NCBI GenBank assembly: GCA_021800165.1
Contig: JAJYZF010000014.1
Location: forward strand, 1 to 64,000
Direction of reading: 5' to 3'
Origin: Planctomycetota bacterium
Lineage (GTDB): Bacteria > Planctomycetota > Phycisphaerae > WQYP01
DNA length: 64,000 nt
Shown here: piece by piece, positions 24,787 through 48,433 of the stretch
How the letters are laid out: the number at the start of each line of letters is the position of its first letter
How positions within the stretch are numbered: the stretch's first letter is position 1
Notes under the pieces: generated by a model
What the model saw: only the letters and a program-made list of their open reading frames with translations
Told to the model about the DNA's origin: nothing
The model's database searches: none
Program-made: the position numbers and the translations under genes

Positions 24787-24875
24787 TGGACCCGGCTTGC
24801 ACAGTAGCGCGCGTGGCCGGCGTGGCCACGTTGAGTGGCGCGAGGAACCGCAAACTCAGAATGGAGAAAAATGCT

Positions 24876-26111
24876 ATGCAAGATGATTTTGTGGACGGTG
24901 CTCGCGGCGAGCGGGCGGGCGGCCGCTACCTTGTTTTTTGGGGCCTCGTCGTGGCCGCAACTGCTGTGCTGTGTGCCGTTCCATCCGGCCGGGGCCGGAG
25001 CGCCGTGGCAGCGGCCCCATCCGGAGGGCCTTGGGTGGTTGGGAAGGTGCCGCCAGCGCCGTGGAAGAGCAGGACAGCGCATGGTGTGCGTACGCTCATT
25101 CAAGCGCCGGCTCGTGTGAACGCTGGGTATCCGGTTGACGTCAGAATCACGCTGGTGAACCACGGGGATCTGTGGATAGCGGATCGGGGTCTTGTCCCAG
25201 CCTGGGGACTGCTGCCTCGGACATGGTGCTGGGGGCCTCGAACACGTTCTCCCGCGAAGCTTTTGCGCTACGCGGCCGGAGGGCGGCTGGGGGTAACATT
25301 GACGGGCAGCGGGCCGACGGTTTGCGCAGGGCCGGGGGCGAGCCTCGCCCTTCCTCGCCGTCTGCACCTCTCTCGCATCTTCGACCTGAGCGTGCCCGGC
25401 AGCTATGAAGTGCAGTTGGCGGGGGAAGGCCCGTTTTTCACAGCCAGCCCCGCTCATGGCGGGAGGATTGAGCGGCATCTGACGGGGCGGCTTTTGGTTA
25501 GCAACGTGATAAAAGTTCGGGTGCTGGCCCCGGCCACCGAGCCACCGGGACCGATCCTTAAGATTGCCGCCATCGGCACTACCCGGTCCGCCATTTGGGG
25601 CATGGCTGAAGATGGCGTTGAGATGGCGGCACAGGCCCGGCCATCCGCCGGACTGACGGCACGAGTGCGTCTGCTGTTTCGCTGCACTGGGCGGCGGCCA
25701 GCCGGGCTGCGCCTCACGGGGAATCCCCCGATTGACTTCCTCGGCGGGTGCGATGTGCGTGGGCCGTTTGTCGGCCCCGGTTATGTCAATCTCCCCGCCT
25801 ACAAACGGATCATCGGCAAGCCCGCCCCTCTGACGGCCTACGGGCGGCAGCTTTCCAGGCCCGCAGGGGCGAGCCCGCCCGAAAAGATGTTCACGCTCAA
25901 GCCGGGCAAGGTATACGAATATTGGGTACCCCTCGTGCTGAATAGTTGGTTCGACCTGTCGTACAAGGGCGTGTACCGGTTTAAGGCACGGTTGGGCGGG
26001 ACGCATTTGAACTCCGCTCCGATTCCACTGTTCATAGGCGTACCGCCGGCGGAATACAAACGCCCCGGCGACCTTTTCCGCGTGGTTCCACCGCGCTGGG
26101 CCCGCCGTTGA
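24876..26111 (+). CDS. Exported protein, paralog family member 1
   Basis: A 411-residue protein of no family known to me. A signal or anchor segment is present (YLVFWGLVVAATAVLCAVP, about 18-37). Two beta-sandwich-like halves follow. In the first, VDVRITLVNHGDLWIADRGL and FDLSVPGSYEVQLAGEG match the same positions in the three downstream paralogs ('VLRLILRNRG..', 'FDMTVPGDYRVQV'). In the second, MFTLKPGKVYEYWVPL and FDLSYKGVYRFKARLGGTH repeat the theme. The ATG at 24876 is chosen for its GGAG site. Sequence is rich in Pro, Gly, Arg. It lies between two transposase-fragment repeats. Confidence 0.6.
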   Translation: MQDDFVDGARGERAGGRYLVFWGLVVAATAVLCAVPSGRGRSAVAAAPSGGPWVVGKVPPAPWKSRTAHGVRTLIQAPARVNAGYPVDVRITLVNHGDLWIADRGLVPAWGLLPRTWCWGPRTRSPAKLLRYAAGGRLGVTLTGSGPTVCAGPGASLALPRRLHLSRIFDLSVPGSYEVQLAGEGPFFTASPAHGGRIERHLTGRLLVSNVIKVRVLAPATEPPGPILKIAAIGTTRSAIWGMAEDGVEMAAQARPSAGLTARVRLLFRCTGRRPAGLRLTGNPPIDFLGGCDVRGPFVGPGYVNLPAYKRIIGKPAPLTAYGRQLSRPAGASPPEKMFTLKPGKVYEYWVPLVLNSWFDLSYKGVYRFKARLGGTHLNSAPIPLFIGVPPAEYKRPGDLFRVVPPRWARR

Positions 26112-26227
26112 GGCCAGCGGGAGCAATGGGCGGATACAAAAATAGGGGTCTTCGGGCAAACGGGGAGTGCAACGGGGACGCAGCTCATTTATCCAAAATG
26201 GGTACCAAGTTATCGCGGCCCTGGCCG

Positions 26228-26423
26228 GGTGCGGTGTGGCAATCGGGTGGATATGGTTGGTCATCGGGCAGAAGCCGAGGATCGCCCCATTTGCGGCGGC
26301 AGCCTCCTCGGCCAGTATGGCAAGGCACGCCCGGCGATCATCATCGACGAAAAACACCTGTTGACGGTTATTGCCGCGCTGGGTAACGTGACGGGGTATT
26401 TCGGGGATGGCAATGCGCGAGGT
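26228..26423 (-). pseudogene. REP-associated (Y1-type) transposase, fragment B
   Basis: The minus strand reads IAIPEIPRHVTQRGNNRQQ, VFFVDDDRRACLAILAEEAA, then ANGAILGFCPMTNHIHPIATP. This continues through the NHIH (HUH) motif of RAYT transposases and further than fragment A. The start codon is lost (a TAA precedes TSRIAIP) and the C-terminal half with the catalytic Tyr is absent. It is a decayed copy. Confidence 0.72.
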
Positions 26424-26468
26424 TTACCCGGCATGGGAGTCAATAAACATGTGACTGTCCCTGGTTTC
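26293..26468 (-). repeat. Direct repeat B (transposase fragment plus flank)
   Basis: Second copy of the repeat at 24586-24786, diverged by substitutions and one deletion of about 25 nt. It ends immediately before the ribosome site of the second exported paralog. Confidence 0.7.
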
Positions 26469-26479
26469 ATTGAAAGGAA

Positions 26480-27661
26480 ATGAATATTCGCGATCTGTTT
26501 AAACCTCCGGCGCGGTTGGTTTCGGCCTTGGCCGCCGGCCTGTTGGGCGTATCCGCCAGCATCTGCGCGGGTGCCGGCCTACCGTCCGGGAAGGCCCATG
26601 CAATCGGTGCGGCAACGAAGACTGCGGTCGGCACCGGCTTGGTGGCCGGGCCGGTACCCACGCCGTACGGGCTGGCCATGAGCATATCGCCGGTCGGCTC
26701 GGCAATCAAATCGGGGCAGCCTCTCGTTCTCAGATTAATTCTGAGGAATCGTGGTAGGACGCCGCTCAAGCTGTTCCTCGACACGTGGGGCAGCATCCTG
26801 ACACGCTTTTCCGTAGTGGGCCCGGCACCGAGAAGCGGCCTCTGCCCCCTTTCTAGACTTGGGCGTCATCCGGCCTGGCGATACCCGTCCTTCGTGAGCG
26901 GGCACTGGGTCATGCATGCGCGCCTGGGTGGCGGGATCGTGACGGGCTTGGCACCTGGGAAATCCGTCGTCTTTCTGAGTCGCTACGTGGTCCCACCTTT
27001 CTTCGACATGACGGTTCCCGGCGATTATCGTGTTCAGGTCGGATGCGCGGGGATGGTCTCGAATGTCGCCACGGTCCGCGTTTCGGCCGACGGTACCAAG
27101 CCACCCACCAAGCCCCTCATTTCCGGGCCGCTCAAGGCAGCCCCAGGCACCGTTGGTGGGCCGCCAGGCCCACATTTTCATGGTGCCCTCCTTCCCGGGA
27201 CACCCAGGGCAGCCGTGCGGTGGGGCAAGCCCTGGCGTGGGTTGGAGGTGCGAGTATTCCAGGCCGCCCCCGGCGGAACCACGGTGGGCGTGGTGCTGCG
27301 GAACGTGGGGAAAACTCGCGTCCACATCGGCCTTACCGGAGCGCCCGCCCAGGATTTCCCGGAAATTGCGGCAACTGGCCCGAACGCAGGCTTCCTGATT
27401 TCCGGCGGGCTGGCACCACGTCTGGTCGATTTTCGTAACAAACCGGTGCCGTCGAGCGCGTACGGTGCCTATTTGGCGGCGAGCGGTCCGGTGCGGACGC
27501 TAAAGCGCGCCACATATAACCTCGCGCCCGGGAAGGAATACTGGTACGCCGGGCAGGTTACCATAGGCTCTCGCGTTGATATGTCGCTGCCCGGAAAATA
27601 CCGGGTTAAGCTTAGACTGGCGGGCACACGCTGCTGGTCTAACGTGGCCGTCTTGCCTTGA
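26480..27661 (+). CDS. Exported protein, paralog family member 2
   Basis: A 393-residue exported protein with a signal peptide (LVSALAAGLLGVSASICAGAG, about 13-33). The first half contains QPLVLRLILRNRGRTPLKLF and FFDMTVPGDYRVQVGCAGMVSNVATVRV. The second contains TTVGVVLRNVGKTRVHIGL, YNLAPGKEYWYAGQV and MSLPGKYRVKLRLAGTRCWSNVAV. The two halves therefore look like repeats of one beta-sandwich module, similar to the CARDB/BsuPI-like 'relative strength of neighbours' folds; this is fold-level inference only. An AAAGGAA site lies just before the ATG. It is most similar to member 1. Confidence 0.62.
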   Translation: MNIRDLFKPPARLVSALAAGLLGVSASICAGAGLPSGKAHAIGAATKTAVGTGLVAGPVPTPYGLAMSISPVGSAIKSGQPLVLRLILRNRGRTPLKLFLDTWGSILTRFSVVGPAPRSGLCPLSRLGRHPAWRYPSFVSGHWVMHARLGGGIVTGLAPGKSVVFLSRYVVPPFFDMTVPGDYRVQVGCAGMVSNVATVRVSADGTKPPTKPLISGPLKAAPGTVGGPPGPHFHGALLPGTPRAAVRWGKPWRGLEVRVFQAAPGGTTVGVVLRNVGKTRVHIGLTGAPAQDFPEIAATGPNAGFLISGGLAPRLVDFRNKPVPSSAYGAYLAASGPVRTLKRATYNLAPGKEYWYAGQVTIGSRVDMSLPGKYRVKLRLAGTRCWSNVAVLP

Positions 27662-28193
27662 GGGCCAAGGGAGCAAAAAGCGGAGGCAGTTATAGATATG
27701 GCGCGGGTTAGGTGATTCCGCCTCCTCCGGTCTCAACGCCTATTACACGCCGCCATCGGATGCGCCGGAGGGCCAGCTTTCAGCCAGCTACGATTGGTCG
27801 GTTTCGCAGGTGCAATACAAGGCCATACAGGCGGACACATTTGGTGCTCCACCGGCGAATAGTTATACTGATTCCATCAGTCTCCCGATGCATCGGGATA
27901 AACTCCCCAACGCGTTTGGGGGCGACCTTGACATTTACGCCGGAGATTGGGGGCTATTGGCAGGTTTCGGTGGATTGCAGCGTGGCCGGGACGAATACCA
28001 CGACAAATTTCCAATGGAAATGGGCCGGGGCGGCGCTGAATCTTAACGGCAGCGGTTGGACCGCGAGCGGGGCAAACTCCCCGAACCCACCGACCACCAC
28101 CAGCCCGGCTACGGAGCCGACGTGGACGGCGAACATAAAATCGGTAACGCCCGCTGCGATCACAAGCGTCTGGGAACGGGCGGAGGATCAACG
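27662..28193. pseudogene. Remnant of an unknown surface-type protein (copy C region)
   Basis: Between two exported paralogs the plus strand holds pieces of a protein in two frames. From about 27714 one frame reads AYYTPPSDAPEGQLSASYDW and continues to TDSISLP near 27886. Then another frame reads GATLTFTPEIGGYWQVSVDC and continues with FQWKWAGAALNLNGSGW and PATEPTWTANIKSV to the stop at 28197. Comparison with the copy at 30388-30600 shows mainly synonymous differences in the first frame before the palindrome at 27884 and in the second frame after it, so both parts were once coding. No intact start was found. Family unknown. Confidence 0.5.
27771..27983 (+). repeat. 213-nt direct repeat, copy C
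   Basis: Matches 30388-30600 base for base in length, with scattered substitutions. It starts GGCCAGCTTTCAGCCAGC and contains the palindrome CCCGATGCATCGGG (27884-27897). The two copies bracket exported paralogs 3 and 4. Confidence 0.85.
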
Positions 28194-29021
28194 ATGAAAA
28201 GCTCGCTAACAGCTCAATTTTCTCGGAAAGGAGCGCCTTGGCCGGCGGCCCTTGCCTTGCTGGCTACCGCAATGTCGGCACAGGTCTCGGTCGGGCACAT
28301 GTTTCTACGCCGCATCCTGCTGAGATCAGCGCACGGTGTCGCCGCGGCCCTGAGGCCTGTGGGGCAAAGTACAACTCTAGCCGCGACGGTGGAGAATCGC
28401 GGGCACAGCGTGGCCTACGTCATGACCGAGAAACCATGCGGGTGGAGGATCGTAATCGTTAACGATGACCTCGCTGTCCCCGCCAGCACCAAAGCGGGAA
28501 GGCTGCTGAAGGCCGCCCACAGCGCGCTGGAGACGAGGCCTAACCTCAGGTACGTGCCACTGGAGCCGGGGAAATCGGTGGCCACTAAGATCTCGTTGCG
28601 GAAATATTTTCTACTGGTGCCCGGAAAATACTTCGTTCAGGTGACCCGCCCCGTCGGTTTCGGCACCGGTGACCAGCCTTCCAAGCTGGTGTGGATAGCC
28701 TGTGGTCCCATTGAGCTGACGATTTCGGCCAACGGCAAGATCACGTGGCGGACGAGGGATGTCAAGTGGCCGGTCCCGCCGCCGCGAAAAATCCCGCCGG
28801 GGCCGCGTGTGGAATTCGCCGAGCTTCCCCAAACCGGGCCTATCGCGGCCTTGGCCGGCGAGGCGTTGGCGGGCGCACCGGGCACGTTCTTCCTGTTCTC
28901 GGGGACGCAGTCGCCGCTGCCCGCGCCGACCGGCACGGACCTTTCGGCGCTTCCGCAGTGGGACAACAACGTATTTCCGGCGTGGAATGACCCGCAATGG
29001 TCGGTCGTGCAGGCACCCTGA
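28194..29021 (+). CDS. Exported protein, paralog family member 3
   Basis: A 275-residue protein with a signal peptide (AALALLATAMSAQVSVGHM, about 18-37). It keeps one copy of the module shared by this cluster: QSTTLAATVENRGHSVAYVM, LEPGKSVATKISLRKYFLLV and PGKYFVQVTRPVGFGTG. The C-terminal part is Pro-rich and different from members 1 and 2. The ATG at 28194 has a GGAGG site 7 nt upstream, which decides the start over the longer open frame. It may begin within the decayed surface-protein remnant. Function unknown. Confidence 0.6.
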   Translation: MKSSLTAQFSRKGAPWPAALALLATAMSAQVSVGHMFLRRILLRSAHGVAAALRPVGQSTTLAATVENRGHSVAYVMTEKPCGWRIVIVNDDLAVPASTKAGRLLKAAHSALETRPNLRYVPLEPGKSVATKISLRKYFLLVPGKYFVQVTRPVGFGTGDQPSKLVWIACGPIELTISANGKITWRTRDVKWPVPPPRKIPPGPRVEFAELPQTGPIAALAGEALAGAPGTFFLFSGTQSPLPAPTGTDLSALPQWDNNVFPAWNDPQWSVVQAP

Positions 29022-29053
29022 CCTGCAGCTCCCGGAGGCAGTTATAAGGAACA

Positions 29054-30364
29054 ATGTCTATGTCAACGCGTATCCGTATTTCGCTGCTGGCACCACTTGT
29101 ATTTCTGTCACTGGCGCTGGGCATTCAGCTACCCGGCCTAGCTTCTCCCCCCGCTGGCCCAGGATTTTTGGCAATCCGTCCCGCCCCCAAAGCCAGTTTC
29201 CATGGGGCGGTCATTTCGGTTAATCCAAAACGCCGCGGCTTGGCCGTGAGCGCCGTGATCGTGAACCGTGGGCCGGGTGCGTTGTGGGTCTTTGAGCACG
29301 GCGAGCTTATCGGCTGGCGACTGCGGGCATTCTCAGGCGATGGGAGGCCGCTGCGCCTGAAGCGGCGGAGCCCCCGGAAACGCAGATCGCGGACCGTGGT
29401 TTTGCGCCCCGGTATGTCGCTGGCAAGAACCTTTAACCTCTCGGCATGGCCGGAACTTAGTAAAGAGGGCGTCTACTACCTCTATGTGGAGAGGGCCGTT
29501 GCCCTCCCGACCGGTCCGGGTGGTGCCACCGTAGGCTCGCCTATCCTACGGCTTACCCTCCGCAAGGGCGCTCCGGCGGCTTGGAAGGTGGTGCCTGCCG
29601 TGCCGAAACCGGCCTACCACTACCGGCCTCCGCGTCCCCCGCCCCCGTTCCCGCCCTATCGTGTCCCGAGAACCGGTCCGATCGCCACGTTGGCCGAAAT
29701 TTCCGCGGCCGTGCATGGCGGCGACCTCGGTGCGGTCAGGCGGCTGTGTTACCACGGTCGCCGAGAGCCGTCGCCATTTTACGTTGCCAGCGCGGAGGAG
29801 GCAATTGCGGCAGCGAAGATGTGCGCGGCTGTTGGAAAAAAATTTGGAGGCGACACCGGTGCGAAGCTGGAACGTGGGCTGACGTTGTTGCACCCGACCC
29901 CTGAGTCCTTCTCGCGCTTCGTGGCCGAGCTGGACCCACGCTCACTCACGGTTGCGCGCGGAAGGGCCTCCGTCGGTATCTTGTGTTTCCACGCTGGTAG
30001 GTTCGTCCCAACCGGCAACGGATTCCGTTTCCGCGAGATCGGGGGCCGTTGGCTGCTGGACTCCCGGGCCACCTGGAGCACCGGTGCCGGCGTGAGTCGG
30101 CGGGGCTATCGCTTGGATGTGGAATACATGTTGGCCGGAGCTCGACTTTTCGGCTCGCTGAGGAGCAGCGTTGCCGCTGGAAAATTCGCAACCTTGGGGG
30201 CCTTTGAGTCCGCAATGGGTCGGCGTCTGGCCCTCCTAGAGGATCGATTCATGCGGAGAGCAACCGGAGGCAGCCGGGGGTGGGAGAAGTTCGAACGGCG
30301 GTTCCTCCTTAAGAAAAAAAAGTCCGCCGGAGCACCGAAGGACGCCCCTAGGAACCAGCCGTAG
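29054..30364 (+). CDS. Exported protein, paralog family member 4, with extra C-terminal domain
   Basis: A 436-residue protein with a clear signal peptide (ISLLAPLVFLSLALGIQLPGLA, about 9-30). The first 165 residues contain the cluster's module (LAVSAVIVNRGPGALWVFEHGE, LRPGMSLARTFNLSAWPEL, GVYYLYVERAV). After a Pro-rich linker (RPPRPPPPFPPYRVP) comes a 220-residue helical domain (AEISAAVHGGDLGAVRRL, then EEAIAAAKMCAAVGKKF, then FREIGGRWLLDSRATW), which resembles small NTF2-like or DUF-type domains often attached to planctomycete lipoproteins. The linker-plus-domain layout differs from its neighbours. An AAGGA site precedes the ATG. Confidence 0.6.
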   Translation: MSMSTRIRISLLAPLVFLSLALGIQLPGLASPPAGPGFLAIRPAPKASFHGAVISVNPKRRGLAVSAVIVNRGPGALWVFEHGELIGWRLRAFSGDGRPLRLKRRSPRKRRSRTVVLRPGMSLARTFNLSAWPELSKEGVYYLYVERAVALPTGPGGATVGSPILRLTLRKGAPAAWKVVPAVPKPAYHYRPPRPPPPFPPYRVPRTGPIATLAEISAAVHGGDLGAVRRLCYHGRREPSPFYVASAEEAIAAAKMCAAVGKKFGGDTGAKLERGLTLLHPTPESFSRFVAELDPRSLTVARGRASVGILCFHAGRFVPTGNGFRFREIGGRWLLDSRATWSTGAGVSRRGYRLDVEYMLAGARLFGSLRSSVAAGKFATLGAFESAMGRRLALLEDRFMRRATGGSRGWEKFERRFLLKKKKSAGAPKDAPRNQP

Positions 30365-30851
30365 CGGGTACGCCCGGTACCTCGGCAGGCCAGCTTTCAG
30401 CCAGCTACGATTGGTCGGTTTCGCAGGTGCAATACAAGGCCGCCCAAGCGGACGCATTTGGTGCTCCACCGGCGAACATTTATACTGATTCCATAAGTCT
30501 CCCGATGCATCGGGATAAGCTCGCCAGCGCGTTTGGGGGCGACATTGACATTTACGCCGCTGATCGCGGGATATTGGCAAATTTCGACGAGTTGCAGCGT
30601 GATCGTGAGGGTGCATAAGGAGTGCCAACCCGGGCCGGTGGCCAACCGTACCCGGCCATTGTCAACGGCGCGTCGCCAGATCACAACGGTGATCAAGGTG
30701 GAGTATAAAAATTGTAGTTCATGGTGTAAAATTGTCCCGTTGTCGCTGAAGTACCAGGCGGGTACCGTCTGAATTTTGCGTGGAATGTGCCGGGCCGTGA
30801 CATCGGAGGCTGGACCTTGGGCATATAGGGCAGCGTGTAGTAGAGGATCCT
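30365..30851. other. Region with repeat copy D, no supported gene
   Basis: The stretch begins with the second 213-nt repeat and its short surface-protein remnant (QLSASYDWSVSQVQYKAAQA in one frame, GATLTFTPLIAGYWQISTSC in another). The remainder up to the transporter start has only a 60-codon minus-strand frame (30693-30875) without motifs. I see no terminator or clear promoter. Confidence 0.5.
30388..30600 (+). repeat. 213-nt direct repeat, copy D
   Basis: Second copy of the repeat at 27771-27983, with the same palindrome at 30501-30514. After about position 30600 the two sites diverge completely, so only this unit was duplicated or retained. Confidence 0.85.
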
Positions 30852-33293
30852 GTGGCTCATAGAAACCTCATTCATCGCTGCATAAGCCGTCGGCGGTTCG
30901 GGGGGCTTTCGCGGTGGGTTTTTGTTGTCTGGGCGATGGTGTGCCTGCTGTGGGGCGGCACGACCGTGGTTGCGGCGGGGACGGCTCCGCGGCGACCAAT
31001 ACGGCTATATTTCTGGACGATTTCGCGCGATCGGGGGGTGGAAGCGATTGTGCATCAGTTTGAGGCGGATCATCCGGGTGTGAAGATTGTGGCATCGCTT
31101 TATGACGGCGGTACCAACGGATCACAGCGTCTGGCCACGGCCATTATGGGCGGCGCGCCGCCGAATATCGTCTACCAGGATCGTTTTACCATCGGGCAGT
31201 GGGCGGTGTTGGGGGCGTTTTACCGGCTCAATGACCTTATCAGCCAGAGCATGGCGCGGCAAAATCGCGGTGGTCCGGAGGGTATCAATTCCGCCGATTA
31301 TTATCCCTTCTGCTGGCGGGAAGCATCGTATCGGGGAGGGGTTTATGGTATTCCCACCGGCACTGAGGTGCGGGTGCTTTTTTATAACTCCGACGAACTC
31401 CGTCAGGTCGGTCTGGTAAACACGCTGGGCCGGGTGGCACCGCCGAAAACCTGGGGCCAGCTCGAGCGGGACGCCTTGAAGCTCTGTCGCCGCAACGCTG
31501 CCGGGGATTTGACGCGACTGGGCTTTGCTCCGAACTACGGCAATAGCTGGCTTTATATTTATGCCTTCCTGGACGGGGGAAGATTTATGAACCGGGCCGG
31601 CACGCTTTGCACGATGGATTCGCCGCCAGTGGTCAAGGCCCTGGCTTACATGGCGCGCTTGTACCGCTTGCAGGGCGGCATCAATCGGGTGGATGCGTTT
31701 GTTAATGCCGGTTCCGGCCCGCAGTTCGACCCTTTTTTGAGCGGCAGATTGGCGATGAAGATTGACGGCAACTGGGTGCTCAACGAGATCGTTCGCTACC
31801 AGCGGCATTTGCGTTTCGGCGTGGCTTATCCGCCGCCGCTACGGGGTCATGGGTCCGCCACATGGAGTGGTGGCTTTGCCCTGGTGATACCGAAAACGGC
31901 GAGCCATAAGCAACTGTCATTTGATTTCATACGGTTTTTTGTCAGTCAGCGCGGGGCGCAGATCTATAACCGCGTGAACAACCGCTATTACGCGGCGCGT
32001 GGACGCACGTATCTACCCGACTTTACCGCCCAGCCGGCGATTAATCGCGAAATGTATCGGCGCTATGTGCGGGGGAATCCCAACATGCCGCCGCGTGTAG
32101 CCAAAGCCATGCACACCTGTTATGAACTCTTGAAGATCAGTCATAACCGGCCGGTTACACCGGTGGGCGATTATATGTGGGACCAGATGTTGGAGGCCCA
32201 AAGCAGCGTGTTTCGCGCGGGTATGAGTGCACAAGCCGCCCTGACGCGGGCGACCAAAAAGGTGCAGCGGCGATTGAACCGCATTTTACATCCAATTCCG
32301 GCGGCCCGGTTGCCGGAGGGTGTGGTGATGGCGGTGCTGGCCGTGGTGGCGGTGGTATTGGTGCTGGCGGGCTTTTGGCGGGAGTGGCGGAAGAACAGGC
32401 TAACGCAATGGCGGCGGTCGCAGACGGCCATGGGGTGGATGTTTGCAGGTCCGGCGGTGGCGGGGTTTCTTATCTTTTCGTTGGGGCCGATGGTGGCTTC
32501 GCTGCTGTATAGTTTTTGTCGGTACAATTTGCTCCACGCTTCGCGTTGGGTGGGGCTGGAAAATTACCAGCGTGTATTGATGGGGCATTCGCTGTTCTGG
32601 TATTCGCTGGCCAATACGGCGTATATGCTTATCGGCGTGCCGTTGGGTATGGCGGTGGGGTTGGCGTTGGCGATGTTGCTCAATACGGAGGTGCGCGGCA
32701 TCCGACTGTATCGCACCATTTTCTATTTGCCGGCGGTGGTGCCGGCGGTGGCGGCGGCGTATTTGTGGATGTGGATCCTGAATCCGGTGAATGGTTTACT
32801 CAATTCGCTGTTAAGGGATTTTGGGGTGGCGCATCCGCCGCTGTGGCTCAACAGTCCGTCGTGGTTGCTGGGGTCCAAGGCGGGAATTATTTTGATGGGG
32901 TTGTGGGGCGCTGGTGCGGGAATGATTATCTGGTTGGCGGGGCTTAAGGGCATACCGACGCAGCTCTATGAGGCGGCCAAGATGGACGGTGCGGGTCCGG
33001 TGCGGCGGTTTTGGAATATCACACTGCCGATGCTCACGCCGTACATTTTCTTCAACCTGATTATGGGGGTGATCGGCACGATGCAGATTTTCAGCCAGTC
33101 GTACATTATGACCTCGGGTGGGCCGGACCATTCGACGGATTTTTATGCGTTGTATCTGTTCAATCAGGCCTTTAAGTATTTTCGGATGGGCTATGCCTCG
33201 GCCCTGGCGTGGCTTCTGCTGCTTTTGATATTGGCTCTGACGGCGATACAGTTTTGGCTGAGCCGGAGATGGGTGAATTATGATGTGGTGTAA
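30852..33293 (+). CDS. ABC sugar transporter: substrate-binding protein fused to permease
   Basis: An 813-residue fusion. After a signal anchor (about 19-42) residues of roughly 48-470 form an extracellular solute-binding protein of the carbohydrate type (RPIRLYFWTISRDRGVEAIV, PNIVYQDRFTIGQWA, GVYGIPTGTEVRVLFYNSDEL, GRLAMKIDGNWVLNEI). A membrane span near 485-508 leads into a MalF/UgpA-type permease (about 520-813) with six spans and the EAA loop YEAAKMDGAGPVRRFWNITLP that docks the ATPase. Normally these are separate proteins. The start is a GTG with a GAGG site. The partner permease follows; no ATPase gene is in the window, so a shared MsmK-like ATPase is likely. Confidence 0.87.
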   Translation: MAHRNLIHRCISRRRFGGLSRWVFVVWAMVCLLWGGTTVVAAGTAPRRPIRLYFWTISRDRGVEAIVHQFEADHPGVKIVASLYDGGTNGSQRLATAIMGGAPPNIVYQDRFTIGQWAVLGAFYRLNDLISQSMARQNRGGPEGINSADYYPFCWREASYRGGVYGIPTGTEVRVLFYNSDELRQVGLVNTLGRVAPPKTWGQLERDALKLCRRNAAGDLTRLGFAPNYGNSWLYIYAFLDGGRFMNRAGTLCTMDSPPVVKALAYMARLYRLQGGINRVDAFVNAGSGPQFDPFLSGRLAMKIDGNWVLNEIVRYQRHLRFGVAYPPPLRGHGSATWSGGFALVIPKTASHKQLSFDFIRFFVSQRGAQIYNRVNNRYYAARGRTYLPDFTAQPAINREMYRRYVRGNPNMPPRVAKAMHTCYELLKISHNRPVTPVGDYMWDQMLEAQSSVFRAGMSAQAALTRATKKVQRRLNRILHPIPAARLPEGVVMAVLAVVAVVLVLAGFWREWRKNRLTQWRRSQTAMGWMFAGPAVAGFLIFSLGPMVASLLYSFCRYNLLHASRWVGLENYQRVLMGHSLFWYSLANTAYMLIGVPLGMAVGLALAMLLNTEVRGIRLYRTIFYLPAVVPAVAAAYLWMWILNPVNGLLNSLLRDFGVAHPPLWLNSPSWLLGSKAGIILMGLWGAGAGMIIWLAGLKGIPTQLYEAAKMDGAGPVRRFWNITLPMLTPYIFFNLIMGVIGTMQIFSQSYIMTSGGPDHSTDFYALYLFNQAFKYFRMGYASALAWLLLLLILALTAIQFWLSRRWVNYDVV

Positions 33294-33335
33294 ACCAGGC
33301 GCGCCGCCTCGGCGGTGGTGCCGGGAAGAGTTGGT

Positions 33336-35147
33336 ATGAAACGATTGCTGTTTGCGGGCGGGCTGTGGCTGGAAACGGTGTTGATGGCGGCGCTGGCTAC
33401 GATTATTGTTCACCGCACCTTGCCGGACAATGCCGGAGAACTGACCTGGGCCCTGGGCGTGCTGGCTATTTTTGCGGGTGCTGCGGCTTTTCTTGCGCCC
33501 ATGGGACTGCTGCAACGTTTAACGCTTCAAGGGGCGCTGATCAGCGGAGCGTGTCTATTTATCCTGCCTTTTTTGTGGCTGGTGGGTACGAGTTTCAAAT
33601 ACAACCGGGAAATTTTTGTGCAGCCACCACATTGGCTGCCGGCCTTGCCAAGAGAGGTCATCCGCTCTCCGTATCTGGTGAAACGCTATGTCCGTTTGCC
33701 GCCGCCACCACATGTTGGCAAGAGCCGCTGGCGCGCCATGGCTTTGGCCTTGGAGCAAAACTTGTGGCGGCAAGCACGTCCCCTGCTGCCGCAGAAGGAG
33801 TTGGCCCTTATTGGTGTTGGTTCGGCGCGTGCGGTGATGGGTCCGATGCTGGTCCATAGGCTCCAGAAGTTCGAGCCGCCGGGGTTTTGGAATCAGCCCA
33901 CCTCGGCGATCTGTCAAAAGGCGGTGGCGGCGATGACTGCTGGGCGGGTTCGCTCAGCGTGGGAGCGGGCTTATCGTGGACTAAAGCTCTCCGGTATTAC
34001 GCTTACCGATACCCACTATCATGATGCTGCGGTGCAGCCTGCGGATATTGGTTGGCGGGTCAGTTCGCCGGCAAGGTTACTGCGGGGTGAGCCGAATCTG
34101 GTGGCGTACAACTTAGCGCAAGGTCATGGGTTTACGATTCAAGCCGATTTCACGTTGCCGAAATCGGTGCATCATCTGCTGGGCATTACCATTCCCATCC
34201 ACGAAGATCGCTCCTGGCAATATGTGCGGGTGTCTTTGCGGGTGGGAGTGGTGCGTTACGTATCTAAGAATCTTATGTTTTTGGGCAATCGGCGCTGGCA
34301 ATCGCTGATATTTCATCTTCATGATCGCGATCCGGCCAATGAGACCAATATGGGTATTTTCCCGTTGTATCGCAGCGGCGTGGTTGACGTTCACGCGTTG
34401 CAGATGCCGGGTGCAGTGCAAGTTAAGCTGCATGTGACCAAAATTTCGCCGGCGGCTGCGGCTTTCTATAAGTTTACCGATTCTTACCGGCAGGCCTGGT
34501 ACGCCGATCGGCATTGGTTGGATTACCTGTTCAACAGCGTGACGGTGGTGATATTGTGCGTCATTTTTCAGGTGATCAGTTGCTCCATGGCGGGGTATGC
34601 CTTTGCCCGCTTGCAATGGCCGCTGCGGGATAAAATATTTGCACTGCTGCTGGCCACAATGATGTTGCCGGGAACGGTCACCATGATTCCGGTCTTTCTG
34701 ATCTTCAAACATCTGGGTTGGTACAACACGCTCTTACCACTGTGGGTGCCGGCCGTTTTCGGTAGCGCATTTTTTATATTTCTGCTGCGGCAGTTTATGC
34801 GCAATATTCCCCGGGAGTTGGAAGAGGCTGCGTTGATCGATGGCTGCGGGTGGTTTGGCATCTATTGGCGGATTATTATGCCGCTGATGAAGCCGGCGCT
34901 GGCGGCCATCGCCATTTTGACGTTCATGGGCGTGTGGAATGATTTTATGACGCCGTTGATTTATCTTTCCAGTCCGAGCCGTTACACGCTGCCTCTGGGC
35001 ATGTACGAGTTTTCCAGTGCCCATGGCGGGCAGTTTGGCATGATGATGGCGGCGGCAACAATGATGACCTTGCCCGTGGTGGCGGTGTTTTTCGTGGCGC
35101 AGCGGTATTTTATTCAAGGCATCACCCTCACGGGTATGAAGGGGTGA
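33336..35147 (+). CDS. ABC sugar transporter permease (MalG type) with a large extracytoplasmic insertion
   Basis: A 603-residue permease, about twice the usual 280. Two spans form a leader (about 7-65), then a span ending WLVGTSFKYNREIF. Where a MalG-type protein would continue within a few tens of residues, there is an insertion of about 290 residues (roughly 100-385), soluble and beta-rich (LVAYNLAQGHGFTIQADFTL, WQYVRVSLRVGVVRYVS, WQSLIFHLHDRDPANETN). The normal core resumes at LDYLFNSVTVVILCVIFQVI and includes EEAALIDGCGWFGIYWRIIMP (EAA loop) and FMGVWNDFMTPLIYLSS. I chose the ATG at 33336, preceded by GGAAGAG. It pairs with the fused binding protein-permease upstream. Confidence 0.85.
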   Translation: MKRLLFAGGLWLETVLMAALATIIVHRTLPDNAGELTWALGVLAIFAGAAAFLAPMGLLQRLTLQGALISGACLFILPFLWLVGTSFKYNREIFVQPPHWLPALPREVIRSPYLVKRYVRLPPPPHVGKSRWRAMALALEQNLWRQARPLLPQKELALIGVGSARAVMGPMLVHRLQKFEPPGFWNQPTSAICQKAVAAMTAGRVRSAWERAYRGLKLSGITLTDTHYHDAAVQPADIGWRVSSPARLLRGEPNLVAYNLAQGHGFTIQADFTLPKSVHHLLGITIPIHEDRSWQYVRVSLRVGVVRYVSKNLMFLGNRRWQSLIFHLHDRDPANETNMGIFPLYRSGVVDVHALQMPGAVQVKLHVTKISPAAAAFYKFTDSYRQAWYADRHWLDYLFNSVTVVILCVIFQVISCSMAGYAFARLQWPLRDKIFALLLATMMLPGTVTMIPVFLIFKHLGWYNTLLPLWVPAVFGSAFFIFLLRQFMRNIPRELEEAALIDGCGWFGIYWRIIMPLMKPALAAIAILTFMGVWNDFMTPLIYLSSPSRYTLPLGMYEFSSAHGGQFGMMMAAATMMTLPVVAVFFVAQRYFIQGITLTGMKG

Positions 35148-45218: not shown

Positions 45219-46085
45219 GATCGATACCTTGTGTTGGAAACGGTGCCAATGCCAAAAGTATACCACCCGCCCGCATTGCCACAATTCAAGCCGGATCAGG
45301 CACTCCAAGGCAGTCTGGTTCCAAGGCAACTACGCATATTATACACACTTTGCCCCTGGAAAGCATCCTTACACTTTCGTAACCGGAGGGCATAAGGCCC
45401 GCAGCGAGAGGTATGGCGCAGTTAGGGCGATAGTGCTCAGGCTGGGCTATCAGCCGTGGTTGCTGCTGGCCGATAGCCAATGACTCTTCTCTGCAATACC
45501 TTGGACGGATGAAAGTCGTAGAGTTTGGCGTTTTAGCCAAGGCGGGTCATTTCATTCCAACCTCACCGGTACCCGGCGAATCTACTATTGCGTTGGCATG
45601 GCCGGGGCCGTGCATGCCGTCGAGGCCACCCAGCGGGCGTACGTCCCATAAAAGCGACCAAGTGTGTTGGCAAGCTGGGCACACTGCATCTGGGCAAAGT
45701 ACCGACAGCTTTATGCGAAAAGCTGCCGCGAAACAGGACATGACGATTTTTTACCATCCCGACAGACATAGGGATAAGCTCCGGGCACGAAGGTTCACGG
45801 GGCACAGCGTCGGATTTTTGGGGTAAGATTGTCAAGATCGACAAGATCAACAGATATTTTGGGCAAGGAGGCAGGAGGCAGGGACGGGCACGGGCTGCGG
45901 CCCGCGAGACGGGAGGTCCCGATTGGCGACTCCTGCCCAAGAGGCCTGTCCCGAAGGCTCGGGAGATTTCGGCATCCATGCCTTAACCGGGGCGGCGCGG
46001 TCGCTGCGGCGACGGGAGGCGGGGAAGGTGGCTGCACATCTGGGAGGGCGGTCGGGTAAAATAGATGGTTTGACTTGGAGGTGCA
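45219..46085. other. Repeat-bearing intergenic region between tatA and uvrB
   Basis: No gene is supported over about 870 nt; short frames on both strands lack motifs and natural composition. A TATAAT on the minus strand at 45343-45338 may belong to the tatA promoter. At 45758-45780 a palindrome-like element resembles the hairpins inside the 213-nt repeats. A 77-nt element at 45907-45983 recurs after uvrB. Confidence 0.5.
45907..45983 (+). repeat. 77-nt direct repeat flanking uvrB, left copy
   Basis: Starts AGACGGGAGGTCCCGATTGG and ends at CATGCCT. It matches 48264-48340 with only about four substitutions over 77 nt, and it contains several short inverted repeats (CCCGA/TCGGG, AGG/CCT), so it could fold as RNA or act as a mobile palindromic unit. 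Confidence 0.8.
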
Positions 46086-48239: not shown

Positions 48240-48263
48240 AGAGTAGCGCAGCGGCAGCCCGTA

Positions 48264-48340
48264 AGACGGGAGGTCCCGATTGGCGACTCCTGTCCAAGAG
48301 GCCTGTCCCGAAGGCTTGGGAGATTTCGGCGTTCATGCCT
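48264..48340 (+). repeat. 77-nt direct repeat flanking uvrB, right copy
   Basis: Near-identical to 45907-45983. The tail (about 48368-48386, TTTCGGCATCCATGCCTCAA) repeats its last 20 nt once more, so part of the element is present a third time. Confidence 0.8.
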
Positions 48341-48433
48341 TCCCGATGCCTGGCTCCTGCTCCATCGGGATTTCGGCATCCATGCCTCAACGGTGAGGAC
48401 GATTTTTTACCGGAAGAGGTCGGCTTTCTGCGG

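Follow-up and report, generated by a model that had tools for sequence, protein, structure and literature searches.

A tandem array of exported paralogs

The window analyzed here is a stretch of 64,000 nt from a planctomycete assembly (GCA_021800165.1, contig JAJYZF010000014.1, positions 1–64,000; Phycisphaerae, WQYP01). It holds four tandem plus-strand open reading frames (ORFs), P1–P4, with a DUF4416 gene on one side and a gene for an ABC transporter on the other, which a first-pass annotation had described as diverged exported paralogs of unknown family with repeat debris between them. We report that P1–P4 represent two partner types of a three-gene arrangement, W–X–partner, found in related genomes, in which the variable C terminus of an exported protein, X, agrees with the type of partner gene that follows it.

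The four ORFs lie as annotated, and each encodes a hydrophobic N-terminal stretch of the signal-peptide type in a simple hydropathy scan; the open frame of P1 begins at a GTG at 24,813. P1 and P2 are homologous (28% identity, E = 3e-16, blastp), as are P3 and P4 (E about 1e-9, phmmer), and pairwise comparisons of P1/P2 with P3/P4 gave nothing significant. The two pairs meet at the profile level, where hhalign aligned the P family (n = 20 sequences) with the P34 family (n = 7 sequences) over 126 columns (Prob 95.7, E = 1e-8); the score was 72.9, whereas 30 column shuffles reached at most 20.2 and reversing the alignment gave 16.2. One beta-sandwich module is common to P1–P4 at this level, twice in P1 and P2 and once in P3 and P4, so that both the paralogy and the difference in repeat number proposed from the sequence hold. 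Of the two motifs proposed as shared, [VLI].N[RH]G is present in all four proteins, and D...PG.Y is clear (twice each) in P1 and P2 and loosened in P3 and P4. A helical domain supposedly gained by one copy does not stand, the C-terminal region of P4 being the regular build of P34 proteins and present also at L050, L055, L135, L136 and L062.

No match to P1–P4 was found at curated cut-offs in Pfam, NCBIfam or PADLOC, and among their relatives the best match was to PLipase_C_C (E = 0.001), seen for 4 of 20 members; profile searches of the PDB returned nothing firm. Across a set of 61 genomes, 28 of the window's family and 33 outside it, matches (E 0.01) to P2 occur in 14 and to P4 in 9. Strong matches come exclusively from the window's own family, and the few found elsewhere are weak (E = 1.7e-5 to 0.007); P4 shares 42% identity with G024:C137 and 37% with G002:C137. 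A scan of an 84,980-species genome collection yielded 10 loci, all in assemblies titled as planctomycetes. Tandems of P genes recur, with four copies at L044, three at L045 and two each at L046 and L047. P1–P4 are saturated for tests of selection at about 28% identity, and one close copy was usable, that of P2 in G001, which is itself split across two frames; its dN/dS against P2 (0.35 across 151 codons, 0.17 across 56) speaks for constraint and not for positive selection.

W–X–partner loci and the matching of X to partner

Within the window's family 16 of the 28 genomes contain X; none of the 33 genomes searched outside the family does. In the intact order, W, an exported protein with Reg_prop beta-propeller repeats, is followed directly by full-length X and then by a partner gene; in most of six borders inspected, W runs up to or into the start of X. 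X (about 500–560 aa) consists of a conserved N-terminal domain and a variable C-terminal half, and the partners (about 250–850 aa) fall into four types: P (as P1 and P2), P34 (as P4), Y (about 810 aa) and Z (about 250 aa). Signal peptides are seen in the sequences of both X and partners. The two genes mostly overlap or lie 15 nt or less apart, with a few cases of 69 to 557 nt, and natural fusions join X to P34 in a single 902-aa ORF (L062, 1663–4368) and P to P34 (L048, 6419–8431; L136, 304–1995).

Of 38 X C termini, 32 had the length required (≥150 aa) and were clustered on sequence alone; 28 of these 32 had a recognized partner. The C-terminal cluster agrees with the partner type in all 28 pairs, drawn from 14 genomes. 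This matching is partly built in, since types Y and Z were set up from the genes behind X; P and P34 were defined from the window. None of 20,000 permutations of the matching reached 28/28, the best reaching 20/28. Nearest neighbors by X C terminus shared a type in 21 of 21 cases, those by X core in 14 of 21. Among the six C termini dropped as short (<150 aa), that at L138 agrees with its partner; the X at L061:5911 overlaps a P34 gene.

The window's own genome carries W paralogs on ten further contigs (C3, C25, C31, C47, C59, C64, C111, C127, C151 and C210; L156–L165). Several precede other exported families, some in tandem, among them 'KGVGKWAREKGYY' proteins (L160, L162) and 'HIWSPKSPEE' proteins (L161, L164). 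W may therefore stand at the front of arrays of several kinds.

Heads, orphan copies and the remnants in the window

X copies fall into two positions. Among 51 copies, with 7 at contig edges set aside, X was N-terminally truncated in 23 of the 27 that have a partner just upstream versus 5 of the other 24 (Fisher p = 4e-6), of which 19 were full-length. W lies upstream of 18 of these 19, of none of the 27 behind a partner and of 1 of the remaining 5. The truncation recurs beside different partner genes, mostly at profile positions 91–137.

The DNA of these loci is mosaic. Two loci of one genome, G007 (L052 and L053), share flanks of 1,502 bp at 91.5% identity on one side, where W ends and most of X lies, and of 225 bp at 92.4% on the other, where P ends, around a block of ~1.6 kb, comprising the X C terminus and most of P, that is 31–70% identical per 100-nt step. 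The last 60 codons of P2-type paralogs in G007 and G021 are 82–98% identical in DNA versus 28–70% elsewhere in the gene, and in the window's own genome the DNA identity of the X genes on contigs C225 and C69 is 99–100% for the initial 60 codons of the comparison and drops to 30–62% beyond them.

The gaps of the array do hold repeat debris, as annotated, of two kinds: degenerate copies of X and a dispersed repeat of 132–200 nt, D2 (Table 1). The debris is informative because X, the other half of the system, survives here as pseudogene pieces. Both X copies lack a start and the first ~90 to 105 codons and carry a frameshift at the same palindrome. Copy 1 has no signal peptide and has lost much of its C-terminal half, keeping the C-terminal tail, and its stop codon overlaps the ATG of P3; copy 2 is 89% identical to it over 214 nt. 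The odd one out among the four ORFs is P3, which has no P34 C-terminal region and in its place an X-like tail: its last about 31 residues (28,926–29,018) resemble, by eye and unscored, X C termini of the P34-paired type (L050, L055, L127). P3, which lies directly before P4, is probably a chimera, most simply explained by a deletion that fused a P34 gene with the closing part of X.

Table 1. Positions of the array genes, X remnants and D2 repeats in the window
Feature	Coordinates	Strand	Basis
D2a, dispersed repeat 5' of P1	24586..24786	-	96% to 26293-26424 over 132 nt
P1, orphan P-type partner gene; two beta-sandwich modules, signal peptide	24876..26111	+	P profile across both modules, E 1e-87
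D2, second copy, in P1-P2 gap	26293..26468	-	Dispersed-repeat comparison
P2, orphan P-type partner gene; two modules, signal peptide	26480..27661	+	Homology, P profile, AlphaFold2 model
Degenerate X copy 1	27711..28197	+	X profile from position 91; frameshift at palindrome 27883-27904
P3, P34-type module; signal peptide, X-like tail	28194..29021	+	P34 profile E 4e-54; P4 homology
P4, orphan P34-type partner gene; one module and C-terminal region without Pfam match	29054..30364	+	Homology, P34 profile
Degenerate X copy 2, 3' of P4	30373..30607	+	X profile from position 106; palindrome and frameshift at 30500-30521

A 226-nt repeat 3' of P2 and P4, D1, recurs behind P genes in many genomes, P-type genes of other genera among them; we considered it as a conserved RNA or recombination site and rejected both, intact coding copies of exported X elsewhere accounting for it. 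An Rfam search of the window returned two tRNAs only. Orphan X copies from two species carry the palindrome, TCCCGATGCRTCGGGATAAACT, at one shared position, where the frame shifts, with two copies in the window and all four matches in G002 (C98, C100, C135 and C137), and five more matches lie elsewhere in the window's own genome. D2 has further own-genome copies on contigs C148 and C69, and on C69 a 66-codon remnant of a P gene adjoins D2 and a short X match. D2 matched nothing in Pfam or the PDB; its minus strand may resemble the N terminus of a RAYT/IS200-type transposase. Beyond the array, a single 813-aa ORF (30,852–33,293) fuses a solute-binding protein domain to an ABC permease domain; behind it comes a second permease (33,315–35,147) that has a long extension at its N terminus. 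A pair of 91-nt repeats, 91% identical, lies at 45,894–45,984 and 48,251–48,341.

Given the gene order, the type matching, the truncation of orphan X and the mosaic DNA, we think it likely that the array is a leftover, mostly silent part of a system that shuffles cassettes of exported proteins with matched X C termini and partners. Intact head loci consist of W, X and a partner whose type matches the X C terminus, and behind them lie further cassettes, each a truncated piece of X without start or signal plus its own partner. Homologous recombination, acting within the conserved part of X and, in some genomes, within the conserved last ~60 codons of P, would bring a new X C terminus and the partner that matches it into place after the head. 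The window would then hold orphan partners alone (P1, P2, the P34-type P3, and P4) and two pieces of X. We infer that X and partner may bind each other and that recombination may reload the head. Diverged exported paralogs with fast turnover and a likely extracellular role are what remains of the first-pass interpretation; a self-standing family falls, because P1–P4 are two partner types of the W–X–partner system and X survives beside them as pseudogene pieces.

Several observations weigh against this reading. All genomes are metagenome assemblies. Library searches gave no function-naming match for X, any partner or W, which matched Reg_prop only. Beyond the partly built-in matching noted above, 4 of the 32 X C termini have no recognized partner, and one of those dropped as short (L130:2267) disagrees, being P34-like and followed by Z. 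Four of the 27 X copies behind a partner retain much of the N terminus. An expectation that the X core would follow genus while the C terminus followed type failed for the core, whose mean identity was 0.463 within a genus across types versus 0.514 across genera within a type, with 4,789 of 5,000 core-by-genus permutations reaching the statistic.

This behavior of the core would also fit ordinary birth and death of tandem exported paralogs, with X pieces as bystanders copied by unequal crossing-over, as would the P tandems without an adjoining intact X (L045, L046, L047) and the own-genome W paralogs that precede other exported genes without X. That account leaves the 28/28 type matching, the recurrent N-truncation of X beside different partners and the sharp mosaic borders poorly explained, and we regard it as unlikely.

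Possible roles and relation to known systems

Loci of contact-dependent growth inhibition (CDI; cdiBAI) resemble the W–X–partner loci in a constant N-terminal part, a variable C-terminal part and a matched gene directly downstream. Their orphan cdiA-CT/cdiI modules lie in tandem without start and signal and keep a core stretch (PMC3150448), much as most X copies that follow a partner (23 of 27) lack the N terminus. Unlike CDI, X is about 500–560 aa long without VENN or a detectable toxin domain, the partners are exported and large, and a beta-propeller gene, W, lies upstream. A core with a variable C terminus and a matched gene (28/28) and orphan modules (23/27) are present; VENN is absent from all 73 X ORFs and CdiA/Rhs core domains from the six X sequences scanned, and we do not file the system as a member of CDI/Rhs.

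In a sharper form of the cassette reading, the X C termini would be toxins that act outside the cell or within the periplasm, with exported immunity proteins as their partners; the window would be an orphan-immunity array. The head/orphan layout would suit it, being that of CDI and Rhs loci (PMC3150448), as would partner-only arrays, comparable to the immunity arrays against displaced effectors in Vibrio cholerae (PMC5361080). The P–P34 fusions recall tandem or fused (polyimmunity) proteins (PMC3482391), and the conserved 3' end of P recalls recombination through conserved blocks among tandem immunity paralogs (PMC9484751). Against it, six X sequences scanned with Pfam contained neither a toxin domain nor a CdiA/Rhs core domain, VENN occurs in 0 of 73 X ORFs, the partners are large (about 250–850 aa) and one X is fused to its own partner; we consider it somewhat unlikely. 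The V. cholerae type VI secretion system orphan immunity arrays and the tandem esaG/tipC genes also show strings of diverged downstream-gene paralogs, with conserved sequence blocks as recombination sites, but they concern other protein families in another phylum, and an immunity role here is only putative.

Antigenic variation of vls and pilin genes offers a further parallel. There, one expressed head draws on silent donor cassettes. The single head with silent cassettes is shared; unlike those systems, the cassette here comprises two genes, an X end plus a partner, and cassettes differ by type and not in small segments.

X and partner might instead form a two-part exported complex for surface or matrix adhesion, such as a fiber, a biofilm scaffold or a binder of polymers, with cassette exchange as the source of its diversity and no toxicity. 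The signal peptides on both proteins and the X–P34 fusion would fit, and the X core and P modules are modeled as beta-sandwiches. The AlphaFold2 model of P2 (pLDDT 72, pTM 0.70) has two beta-rich domains, the first Ig-like, and Foldseek ranks RbmA, a biofilm scaffold, highest for it (E = 6e-8, TM only 0.2–0.3). VIA-align puts the AsaP1 N-terminal region first (Z 9.2, r.m.s.d. 4.6, 113 residues), followed by many unrelated rows at Z 6–8; RbmA scores Z 7.5 against the P module, and a profile comparison with AsaP1 gave E = 0.22. These predicted likenesses give no function; Ig-type folds match many unrelated proteins. The X model (mean pLDDT 59, pTM 0.46) is confident only for about residues 5–140, a beta-sandwich; its Foldseek rows were generic Ig matches, which we did not use. 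Adhesins, moreover, would have no need of silent partner-only arrays, and we see adhesion as a possibility somewhat short of an even one.

Under the reading of a cassette-shuffling system, we infer that the proteins act on the cell's exterior to recognize other cells or interact with them, along effector/immunity-like lines. Surface recognition or interaction is in our view the most likely role, and the evidence does not decide between antagonism (effector/immunity) and adhesion. The fullest proposal is an undescribed polymorphic exported effector/partner system of one planctomycete family, with at least four matched types and a W–X–partner head reloaded from silent cassettes, acting between cells through toxin or recognition domains of unknown fold; we hold it tentatively and lean toward doubting it. 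Searches of one literature library turned up no description of a W–X–partner system in planctomycetes, which is not proof of absence.

The analysis joins several unnamed exported planctomycete protein families into one system with a testable rule, that the C terminus of X predicts the partner. It places the head/orphan cassette logic of CDI/Rhs loci in protein families without a name in any library used, and candidate X/partner pairs (e.g., L144, L149 and L150) are small enough for expression and for tests of binding, toxicity and protection.

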